NCBI RefSeq assembly: GCF_900184245.1
Contig: NZ_FXXB01000007.1
Location: 248,001-312,000, forward strand
Reading direction: 5' to 3'
Origin: Brachybacterium massiliense
GTDB lineage: Bacteria > Actinomycetota > Actinomycetes > Actinomycetales > Dermabacteraceae
DNA length: 64,000 bases
Below are positions 37,780 to 42,221 of this stretch, piece after piece. The position numbers and the translations under genes are program-made. The notes below the pieces were generated by a model. The model made no database searches, was not told where the DNA came from, and saw only the letters and a list, made by a program, of their open reading frames with translations. The stretch's first letter is position 1. Each line of letters begins with the position of its first letter.

Positions 37780-39576
37780 TCAGGCGCTCGTGACCTCGGT
37801 GACCTCGCCAGCGGCGATGCGGGCGTCCAGCGCGTCGCGGTCCAGGAAGATCCGGTCGCGGCGACGCTCGATCTCGGGATCGGGGATCGGGACCGCGGAG
37901 AGCAGCGCCTGCGTGTACTCGTGCTTCGGGTCGTCGAAGACGTCCTCGGTGCGGCCGGACTCGACGATCCGTCCCTTGTACATCACGGCGATGCGGTCGG
38001 AGATGTTGCGCACCACGGACAAGTCGTGGGAGACGAACAGGTAGCTCACGCCGAGATCCCGCTTGAGCTCCTCGAGCAGGTGCAGCACACCGGCCTGGAT
38101 GGTCACATCCAGCGCGGAGGTGGGCTCGTCGAGCACGATCAGCTTGGGCTCGCAGGCCAGGGCGCGCGCCACACCGATGCGCTGGCGCTGACCGCCGGAG
38201 AACTCGTGCGGGTAGCGGTCCGCGTGCTCGGGCAGGAGACCCACCGTGTCCAGCAGCCACTGGATGCGCTCATCCATCTTCTGCTTCGAGTAGCCCTGCA
38301 CGGTCATCGGCTCGCGCAGCGTGTCCGAGACCGGCAGCCGCGGATCGAGCGAGGCCATCGGGTCCTGGAAGACGATCGAGATGTCCGAACGCAGCTTCTT
38401 GCGCTCGGCTTTGTTGAGCGTGGAGGTGTCCTTGCCGTTGAAGCGGATCTGGCCGCCCTGCAGCGGCTCGAGCTTCATGATCTCCATCAGCGTGGTGGTC
38501 TTGCCGCAGCCGGACTCGCCCACCAGGGCGAAGCACTCCCCCTCGTGGATGTCGAAGGAGATGCCGTCGACCGCGCGCTGCTCGCCGACCTTGCGGCGGA
38601 ACACCGCGCCCTTGGTGATCGGGTAGATGCGCTCGAGCTGGTCGACCTCGAGGATCTTCGGCGCGGCGGTGGTGTCGACGACCGCGTCGCTCACGTTGTC
38701 GGGCGAGGTGCCGCCCACGTCGCCGGCCTCGGAGGCCTCCAGCTCGCCGCGCTCGATCGCGAGGCGCTCGGCGGCGGTGGCCTGACCGTCCACGCGCGGG
38801 ACCGCGGAGAGCAGCTTCTGGGTGTACGCCTCGCGGGGGTGGTAGAAGATGTCGTCGACGCTCCCCTCCTCCACCAGCAGGGACTTCTCCATCACCAGCA
38901 CCCGGTCGGCGAAGCCGGCGACGACTCCGAGATCGTGGGTGATCAGGATCGTGGCCGCGTCGACCATCTCCTGCGCGGTCTTCAGCAGCTCCATCACCTG
39001 CGCCTGGATGGTGACGTCGAGTGCCGTGGTGGGCTCGTCGGCGATGATCAGCTCGGGCTCGTTGGCGATCGCCATCGCGATCATGGCGCGCTGGCGCATG
39101 CCGCCGGAGAACTCGTGGGGGAACTGGCGGGCGCGGCGCCGCGCCTCGGGGATGCCGACCGACTCGAGCAGCTGCACGGCGCGGTCCGCCGACGCGGCCT
39201 TGGAGACCTGCGGGTGGTGCAGCTGGATCGCCTCGGCGATCTGGTCGCCGATCGTGTAGACCGGGGTCAGGGCGGACAGCGGGTCCTGGAAGATCATCGA
39301 GATCTTGTCGCCGCGCAGCTTGGAGAGCTGGCGGTCGTTGAGGGAGAACAGGTCCTGGCCCATGAAGTCGATGCCGCCGGAGATCGTGGCCGTATCGGGC
39401 AGCAGCCCCATCACCGCGAGCGAGCTGACGGACTTCCCCGATCCGGACTCGCCCACGATCGCGAGCGCCTCGCCGCTGCGCACCTCGTAGTTCAGGTTCT
39501 GCACGGCACGGACCGTTCCCGCCTCGGACGGGAAGGTGACGGTGAGGTCACTGACGGTCAGGATCGGTTCGGGCAT
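37780..39576 (-). CDS. Fused double ATP-binding subunit of the oligopeptide transporter
   Basis: A 598-residue protein with two complete ABC cassettes joined by a linker of about 50 residues, equivalent to DppD plus DppF. First cassette: Walker A GESGSGKS, signature FSGGMRQR, Walker B IIADEPTTALD. Second cassette near residue 355: GESGCGKT, FSGGQRQR and VLDEPTSALD. It lies on the opposite strand to the permeases and binding protein, converging on them. The ATG at 39576 has AGAGGTAGGA upstream. An upstream TATCCT at 39702-39697 could be its -10 box. Confidence 0.94.
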   Translation of the reverse strand: MPEPILTVSDLTVTFPSEAGTVRAVQNLNYEVRSGEALAIVGESGSGKSVSSLAVMGLLPDTATISGGIDFMGQDLFSLNDRQLSKLRGDKISMIFQDPLSALTPVYTIGDQIAEAIQLHHPQVSKAASADRAVQLLESVGIPEARRRARQFPHEFSGGMRQRAMIAMAIANEPELIIADEPTTALDVTIQAQVMELLKTAQEMVDAATILITHDLGVVAGFADRVLVMEKSLLVEEGSVDDIFYHPREAYTQKLLSAVPRVDGQATAAERLAIERGELEASEAGDVGGTSPDNVSDAVVDTTAAPKILEVDQLERIYPITKGAVFRRKVGEQRAVDGISFDIHEGECFALVGESGCGKTTTLMEIMKLEPLQGGQIRFNGKDTSTLNKAERKKLRSDISIVFQDPMASLDPRLPVSDTLREPMTVQGYSKQKMDERIQWLLDTVGLLPEHADRYPHEFSGGQRQRIGVARALACEPKLIVLDEPTSALDVTIQAGVLHLLEELKRDLGVSYLFVSHDLSVVRNISDRIAVMYKGRIVESGRTEDVFDDPKHEYTQALLSAVPIPDPEIERRRDRIFLDRDALDARIAAGEVTEVTSA

Positions 39577-39893
39577 GTTCCTACCTCTGGCGTTCGGTGG
39601 CGGCGGTCGTGTCGGACTGCGACGGGCGCGGACGCCGTCTGCGCGCGCGACGACGGGCACGAGAACCCGCACGCGGGCGGATTCGAGACGATCGCCAGGA
39701 TATCCCCTCACCCTGTTGCAGGGGTGCATCCCGCACCCCCGCCCCTGATCCTGACCAAACCGTGATGTACCTGCCGCGGCCCCGCCCGTGAGGGCCCGTC
39801 CCACCTGCGCGAGCCGCCTGCGCTGTGGGCTGTCTCTCACGTAAGGTCGTGGGGGTCGCCCCGGCGTGCGCAGCCCCCGGCCCGCACCGTCGC
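39577..39893. other. Intergenic region left of the adapter
   Basis: About 320 nt between the double ATPase gene and the adapter. It holds a possible minus-strand TATCCT (39702-39697), a short GC-rich palindrome region near 39710-39745, and TAAGGT at 39842-39847 on the plus strand. Because adapter follows, its continuity with moxR is unproven. Confidence 0.5.
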
Positions 39894-39947
39894 CTGGTTC
39901 TTATACACATCTGACGCTGCCGACGATACTCCTTGTGTAGATCTCGG
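39894..39947 (+). other. Illumina Nextera adapter contamination
   Basis: 39899-39912 is TCTTATACACATCT, the end of the transposase mosaic end; 39894-39912 matches that 19-mer at 17 of 19. Then 39913-39926 GACGCTGCCGACGA (Nextera read 1 side), 39927-39934 TACTCCTT (complement of i5 index AAGGAGTA) and 39935-39947 GTGTAGATCTCGG (P5 complement). It is not native DNA and marks a faulty join. Confidence 0.98.
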
Positions 39948-40908
39948 GGCGACTGCCGCCGCCGAGGCCGTGCTCGATGCCGTCGAGACCGCGGTGGTCG
40001 GCAAGCGCGAGTCCCTCGAGCTCGTCCTGACCGGGATCTTCGCCGGGGGCCACGTGCTGCTCGAGGACCTTCCGGGTCTCGGCAAGACCCTCGCCGCCCG
40101 CTCCTTCGCCCAGGCGCTCGGGCTCGAGTTCACCCGCGCCCAGTTCACCCCGGACCTGCTGCCCGCGGACCTCACCGGCGCCGAGGTCTTCGACCAGCGC
40201 ACCGGCGAGTTCGTGTTCCGGCCGGGTCCGGTGTTCACCGGTCTGCTGCTGGCCGACGAGATCAACCGCACCCCGCCGAAGACCCAGTCCGCCCTGCTCG
40301 AGGCGATGCAGGAGCGGCAGGTCTCGGTCGAGGGCACCACACGGCGCCTGCCCGAGCCGTTCCACGTGCTCGCCACCGCGAACCCCGTCGAGCACGAGGG
40401 CACCTATCCCCTGCCCGAGGCACAGCTGGACCGCTTCCTGCTGCGGCTCTCCTTCGGCTATCCCACTCCGGAGCAGGAGTGGGAGGTGGTCTCCCGCCGC
40501 CTGGACCGGCGCCGCGAGGAGCAGACCGTCACCGAGGTGCTCGATGCCGCACAGCTGCGCGCCGTCCAGCGCGTGGTCGAGGAGGTGCACGTCGACGAAG
40601 CGGTGGGCCACTACGCGGTCGAGCTGGTGGCCGCCACCCGCGTGCACCAGAACGCCCTCGTCGGCGCCTCCCCTCGCGGCACCCTCGCACTGATCACCTG
40701 CGCCCGGGCGCTCGCCGTGATCCGGGGACGCGCCTACGTCATCCCCGAGGACGTCAAGGCCCTCGCCCACCCCGCGCTCGATCACCGCGTGACGGTCAAG
40801 CCCGAACTGTGGCTGCAGGACGCCACCGGCGCCGGGGTGGTCGCCTCGGTGCTCTCCCAGACCCCCGTGCCCGCCGCCGCGGAGCCGCCGACGGGCACCC
40901 CCGCGTGA
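39948..40908 (+). CDS. MoxR family AAA ATPase, 5' end lost in adapter
   Basis: A MoxR-type AAA+ ATPase, usually a chaperone acting with DUF58 and VWA proteins. Visible motifs: [16 protein letters not shown], Walker [11 protein letters not shown], Walker [24 protein letters not shown], and [21 protein letters not shown]. Only about 10 codons of plausible N-terminal sequence precede VLDAVETA before the adapter is reached, so the true start is missing; GTG 39970 is the first in-frame start codon. The stop overlaps the DUF58 start (GTGA). Confidence 0.93.
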
Positions 40909-42221
40909 GACCCCTGCAGGCCCGGGCCACGGCCGCCATGGTGCGCGCCGTGCTCGTAGGCTGCACGGCGCTCGTGCTCGGGGTGCTGCTGGGCCGCCCC
41001 GCTCTGCTGCTGGTCGGCCTCCCGCTGCTGGCCTGGGCGCTGACCGCGGTGGCGCTGCGGATCCTCCAGGACCGCGAGGAGGGCTTCCCCGCCCCGGTGC
41101 TCGAGCCCGGCCTGCGCACCGTCGAGGAAGGCGGGACCACGGCGCTGACCCTGCGCACCGCGCCAGGAGCGCTCACCGCGATCACCGTGCCGATGCAGCC
41201 GCACACCCGGTTCTGGCCCCGCTACGGCTCGCTCGCCGGCGACGGCACGGTGCGGCTGCGCGTCACGGCCGAGCGGTGGGGACGAGTCCGCGTCGGCCCC
41301 GTGCACACGCTGGTCACCGACCCGCTGGGAGCCTTCCGCGCGCAGGCCGAGGTGCCCGCCGTGACCGTCCGCGCGGTGCCCTCCTCCTCGGTGCTCGACG
41401 CGCCGGTGGAGGTGCCCACCCCGATCGGGGTCAGCGGCATGCACCTCTCCCGCCGCCGCGGCGACGGGACCGCGCTGTCGGAGGTGCGCGAGTTCCGCCC
41501 GGGCGACCGGCTGCACCGCATCAACTGGCGCGTGACCAGCCGCACCGGCCGCCTGCACACCAACGCCACCTTCACCGAGCAGGACACCGAGGTCCTCATC
41601 GTCACCGACACCATCGCGGACATCACCCCCGCGCCCTGGGCCGGGGATGAAGCACCCTCGAGCCTCGACATGACCGTGCGCGCCACGGCCGCGGTGGCGC
41701 GCCACTACCTCACCGCCGGCGACCGCGTGACCCTGTTCGATCTGGGGCACCTGATCGGTCCGGTGCCCGCGGGCACCGGCCCGCGCCAGCTGCGCGTGCT
41801 CACGAACGCCCTGGCCCGCGCGGGCCGCGAGGACGGCGCGATGCGGCTGCCGCGCCGGCTGCGGTCGGTGCGCTCGGGCACCCTGGTGGTGGTCTGCTCG
41901 CCGCTGCTGCACAAGGAGGCGATCGCCCAGATCGGGGTGCTGATCTCGCTGGGCGCCGACGTGGTGGTGGTGGACACCCTGCCGCCGAGCATCGGCGACA
42001 CCGCGCCGCTGCGCGGGAGGCCCGTCCGCCAGGAGGGCATCTCCTCGGACCGCTTCTGGCCCGAGGCGTGGGCGATGCGGCGCCTGCTGCGGAACTCCAC
42101 CGTGCGCGAGCTGCGGGAGGCCGGCGTGCCGGTCACCACGTGGGAGGGCCCCGCCTCCCTCGCCCCGGTGCTGCTGTCCCTCTCTCGCGCTCGCAGCGCC
42201 CCGCGCCGGAGGAGGTCCTGA
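40905..42221 (+). CDS. DUF58 domain-containing membrane protein
   Basis: A 438-residue protein with two N-terminal hydrophobic segments and a C-terminal DUF58 domain marked by [30 protein letters not shown] (around residues 190-220; key residues EFRPGD and INW). DUF58 proteins resemble von Willebrand A domains and partner with MoxR. The GTG at 40905 overlaps the moxR stop; ATG 40938 is an alternative. The next gene overlaps its stop by 1 nt (TGATG). Confidence 0.88.

Follow-up and report, generated by a model that had tools for sequence, protein, structure and literature searches.

The window analysed here, i.e., the whole stretch of 64,000 nt from contig C1 of the Brachybacterium massiliense assembly (G000; 3.87 Mb, 8 contigs), contains a moxR-type ATPase gene that lacks its native start. 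Directly at the 5' end of this gene lies a stretch of Nextera sequencing adapter, and the gap towards the neighbouring transporter gene is filled with intergenic sequence of differing conservation. The coordinates of all features, including further adapter copies elsewhere in the genome, are given in Table 1. A tRNA scan of the window found none.

Table 1. Features of the moxR locus (window positions) and adapter copies in the whole assembly (contig:position)
Feature	Position	Strand	Basis or remark
Oligopeptide/dipeptide ABC transporter ATP-binding protein (fused ATPase domain pair), divergent to moxR	37780..39576	-	ABC_tran and oligo_HPY, each matched in two stretches
Native intergenic anchor to the left of the adapter	39820..39853	.	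match to G006
Weakly conserved intergenic sequence, left side of the hole, probably native, edge uncertain	39854..39893	.	local G006 match stops at 39853; weak alignment beyond
Nextera i5-side read-through adapter, whole	39894..39947	+	
Mosaic end	39894-39912	+	2 errors
Read-1 adapter complement	39913-39926	+	
i5 index complement TACTCCTT	39927-39934	+	
P5 complement, first 13 bases	39935-39947	+	last bases possibly common with genome
moxR-type AAA ATPase without native start	39948..40908	+	AAA_3 2.2e-63, AAA_lid_2 2.8e-20; ORF list; G006 comparison
DUF58 protein, 3' of moxR, start approximate	40908..42221	+	PF01882 2e-13
i5-side adapter copies (n=8, 23-54 bases)	C1:287894 (window), C4:1(-), C4:47194, C3:1302439, C3:518610, C4:144136, C3:1581659, C3:1627881(-)		
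i7-side adapter copy	C3:1287764	-	reads CCGAGCCCACGAGAC, CGAGGCTG, AT, then N

The identity of the adapter follows from an alignment of the 70-base adapter sequence, which matches 39899-39947 as Nextera i5 read-through in 49/49 bases (100%, E 2.7e-19; G000:C1:287899-287947 in genome coordinates). When extended over the whole feature, 52/54 bases are adapter bases, with the two differences at adapter positions 4 and 5. Its parts stand in the order required of a Nextera (Tn5 tagmentation) read-through after genomic sequence, i.e., mosaic end, read-1 complement, 8-base index and P5 complement. The index belongs to the commercial set, within which we take it to be S507. With up to 3 mismatches allowed, the 19-base mosaic end has a single match in the window and none in 100 shuffles, while the i7-side adapter core has no match in the window with up to 2 mismatches. 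An 8-base block at about 39830 that resembles the mosaic-end start, CTGTCTCT, was rejected as native, given that G006 has the block with one change.

To see which sequence is missing, we compared the locus with relatives. Among the moxR loci of 12 relatives, the one of G006 is the best match (91%) and aligns with the window in a single piece from 38470 to 40400. Where the window has adapter, the sequence of G006 is native and includes the ribosome site and the ATG of moxR. Its MoxR protein begins MPQPTPMSPAEATAAARAVLDAV, while the window resumes at a stretch of 12 residues (not shown). That is, by comparison with G006, the adapter occupies the place of the ribosome site, the ATG and the first 11 codons, and native-type sequence is absent from the window. 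Between the anchors CTCACGTAAGGTCG and GGCGAC we count 137 bases in G006 vs. 98 in the window (54 of them adapter); since G006 is a fragmented draft of 750 contigs, the true native length may differ. The longest moxR ORF starts at the internal GTG 39970, the earliest start codon that the window offers in this frame, such that the predicted MoxR protein begins too late. Apart from its start, the gene is an ordinary MoxR-type ATPase, followed by DUF58.

A first-pass annotation, made from the sequence letters, had proposed that a Nextera adapter with this very i5 index was assembled into the chromosome and that the moxR start and its promoter are thereby unreliable. All of this agrees with the exact alignment and the native start region of G006, by which the gene start and the bases directly in front of it are lost, and we regard 39894-39947 as almost certainly an assembly artefact and not bacterial DNA. 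The same annotation went further, i.e., it regarded the oligopeptide transporter and moxR as not reliably adjacent and the entire range of 39.6-39.95 kb as an artefact. The comparison supports neither extension. The oligopeptide ATPase gene is found upstream of moxR with similar spacing at 2/12 relatives' loci (G006, G002); in the single-contig genome G002, the same two genes are separated by 346 bases between matches vs. 360 in the window. Since the adjacency is present in two relatives, it is probably real in this genome as well, though not general: the fetched flank of the other 10/12 moxR loci yields no match to the ATPase gene, where the locus of G001 is cut by a contig end. Furthermore, 39601-39766 aligns to G006 at 82% and 39820-39853 at 91%, which reduces the unreliable part to about 39854-39947. 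The 53 bases in between (39767-39819) are without counterpart in G006 and are not adapter.

The window copy has company within its own genome. When up to 2 mismatches to the 19-base mosaic end are allowed, G000 has 9 matching places vs. 0 for the reversed control, i.e., eight remnants beyond the window copy. Four i5-side copies extend through the index, where their sequences are TACTCCTT, TACTCCTT, TACTCCTC and TCCCCCTT, which corresponds to 0, 0, 1 and 2 mismatches to S507; one barcode thus recurs in the assembly. Three of these four copies are inside contigs. The barcode of the i7-side copy, CGAGGCTG, is presumably N710. Given i5 and i7 copies, both barcodes of one dual-indexed library are visible. 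The eight i5-side copies show 19 substitutions, among them 11 A>C and 4 T>C. An A>C excess is expected of poor read tails, and the bias seems to fit such low-quality tails.

For these counts, a full-adapter search of G000 was evaluated that gave 20 matches. Eight are the i5-side copies and one is the i7-side copy, found via its mosaic end (E 1.53). We did not count the weak match at C3:1427732 (E 1.53, one gap) and regard the remaining ten (E 0.4-2.9) as chance. The adapter-index pattern matches G000 5 times vs. 2 times for the reversed control; its fifth match, C3:1084757 (3 mismatches), is absent from the mosaic-end places and was not counted.

Besides the window site, we compared C3:1581659, C4:144136 and C4:47194 with relatives. 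All 7/7 relatives searched match across C3:1581659, where G000 has 54 bases more than G006 and G011, the two that were aligned. Of these extra bases, 28 are adapter and 24 repeat the flank with one mismatch, which leaves two more. The site looks as if overlapping contig ends had been joined unmerged, with the adapter hiding the overlap. Within the encoded GntR/aminotransferase protein, the in-frame insert (C3:1581659-1581686; L014, L237) adds 18 residues that are partly adapter-coded. At C4:144136-144164 (L013), the adapter replaces a GC-rich linker that is present in G002 and G007; the host gene was named a peptidoglycan-binding-like repeat protein from reading its sequence. The left flank of C4:47194 is a permease-like gene (likewise named by sequence reading) with many paralogues in the relatives, and the right flank gives short matches only.

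The largest structure bounded by adapter is found at the start of contig C4. Here, C4:1-47234 (L233, L236, L234) forms a 47.2-kb inverted repeat with adapter at both ends. Its arms are identical between position 60 and the centre (23617/23618); their only differences, at positions 1, 23 and 26, all lie within the terminal adapter. Both arms stop at one common genomic base, after which the adapter follows. The fold centre falls within a xylose-isomerase-like gene (Pfam TIM barrel) that continues past the fold point in 6/7 relatives, while the seventh (G006) is without match. The 5' region of the respective G002 gene matches C3:1752469-1753882, i.e., the last bases of contig C3; in G002 coordinates, the match stops 53 bases before the break. 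The C4 arm should therefore continue into C3. Judging from these alignments, the second arm most likely results from a fold-back, i.e., a false duplication of about 23.6 kb. The listed contamination of G000 is 4.05 vs. 0-1 in eight same-genus relatives of at least 99% completeness, which may reflect this duplication.

A 25-base core of the adapter, allowing 3 mismatches at most, served to screen the genomes of the order. Remnants are present in 10/396 genomes, G000 included, compared to 0 for the reversed control. Comparisons of proteins and genomes can thus pick up false joins and peptides that are encoded by adapter. Index reading covered 30/34 of the core matches. A full 8-base index was obtained for 26/30, of which 15 are within one mismatch of a known index. 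The agreement within assemblies varies. Three of three indices in G180 equal S508, those of G242 show 0, 1 and 0 mismatches to S503, and G031 is S507-like (1, 2 and 1 mismatches). The four full indices of G320 have 1, 1, 3 and 4 mismatches to S508. The copies of G008 are degraded, with S504 as nearest index at 2-5 mismatches; two copies in G387 reach 7 and 2 index bases and disagree; the index of G097 is unreadable. That is, one shared barcode per assembly is found in G000 and, elsewhere, in G180 and G242, while G387, G097, G008 and two of the four G320 copies are imperfect in this respect.

Regarding location, copies are at most 164 bases away from a contig end in G031, G180, G242, G320, G325, G327 and G387, while G008 and G097 have copies inside contigs. 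On contig C1 of G008, which belongs to the same genus, seven interior sites were read (six i5-side, one i7-side), all of them with Ns within about 150 bases. Two G008 sites run beyond the P5 or P7 end into A-rich junk. For G000, an N within 1.5 kb is found at only 1/9 adapter sites, such that we infer gap closing at the others from the G008 pattern. A search of the full adapter in five other relatives gave nothing at E 0.01.

A similar picture emerges for exact adapter matches in a scan of genome contigs, where 119/120 loci among the matches listed are at most 210 bases from a contig end. The sole interior locus among these 120 is L075 (Gordonibacter sp. Marseille-P2775, LT827128.1:480010-480058), where an exact indexed adapter lies in the interior of a chromosome record of 3.9 Mb; the surrounding 8 kb contain no N. 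Of 124 indices at the 120 listed loci, 121 are members of the commercial set, and the remaining three deviate from a member by one base. Among the matches listed, the S. lydicus loci L070, L146 and L151 all carry S504, and eight DPWB01 loci all carry S501.

With high confidence, we consider read-through adapter that was retained at contig ends and then buried by joining to be the best explanation. Short Nextera fragments would have been sequenced beyond their far end, and untrimmed read tails consisting of adapter, sample index and P5 or P7 would have been kept as contig ends. Such retention probably occurred at poorly covered, GC-rich spots, where low coverage is our presumed cause. Later scaffolding, extension or gap closing may then have joined the adapter-tipped ends to the next contig, whichever of these steps it was, and such joins would bury the adapter inside a large contig.

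A physical chimera of the library would produce a similar sequence if adapter had been ligated or tagmented into a real molecule, such that genuine reads span genome, adapter and genome. This would agree with the right flank, where the correct gene is taken up again at a plausible point. However, the native-type bases that G006 has are gone from the window site, the flank at C3:1581659 is duplicated, and the G008 sites read adjoin Ns. Moreover, such a molecule would have to prevail in the consensus at each of nine sites, or eight independent ones, given that C4:1 and C4:47194 terminate one and the same duplicated arm. We thus rate a chimera as very improbable. Even less credible is a real Tn5/IS50-type insertion or a transposon mutagenesis that left a mosaic end in the chromosome. 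The 19-base mosaic end does derive from Tn5, but here it runs on into read-1 adapter, index and P5, and we know of no transposon that carries these. The two inverted ends around a transposase or marker that such an insertion requires are not present in the window, which has one end only, with the moxR and transporter ATPase genes on either side; in addition, there are eight further sites in the genome. Finally, that the stretch resembles adapter by chance or is native regulatory DNA in front of moxR has a negligible probability and is refuted by an exact ordered match of 49 bases including the index, by the failure of 100 shuffles to give even the mosaic end, and by the different sequence with ribosome site and ATG that G006 carries in this interval.

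Assuming retention and burial of read-through adapter, the consequences exceed the few adapter bases themselves. In G000, the scars bound the C4 duplication, add 18 residues (together with duplicated flank) and remove the moxR start. The moxR start, the transcription-factor peptide and the 47-kb duplication of G000 are not biology and unfit for interpretation. Buried indexed adapters are, in our view, likely scars of falsely or blindly joined contig ends that lead to larger errors. If true, searching the interior of contigs in species-representative genomes for index-bearing adapters would catch misassemblies that contig-end screens miss. The recurring barcode provides a simple test by which such scars can be told apart from the ends of real mobile elements.

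That microbial genome databases are contaminated with Illumina adapter has been published (Moeller et al. 2024, PMC11536531). As in our case, the adapter was reported in assemblies, both from isolates and metagenomes, where it is concentrated at contig ends and lowers contiguousness. That report concerns the Illumina universal adapter at contig ends, whereas we find an indexed Nextera adapter within large joined contigs; its main text has 0 occurrences of 'Nextera', 'misassembl' or 'within contigs'. Nanopore barcode remnants were found in public databases as well (Barbell, PMC13293122), i.e., library oligos in deposited sequences that create false links between records, although for another platform and other oligos. 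A possible route is indicated by the pipeline described in PMC3441570, which uses adapter-cleaned reads for contig building and the original read set for scaffolding; scaffolding of this type could bring adapters to the joins. Our finding is thus an instance of a known problem, with the adapter here buried within the contig rather than located at its end.
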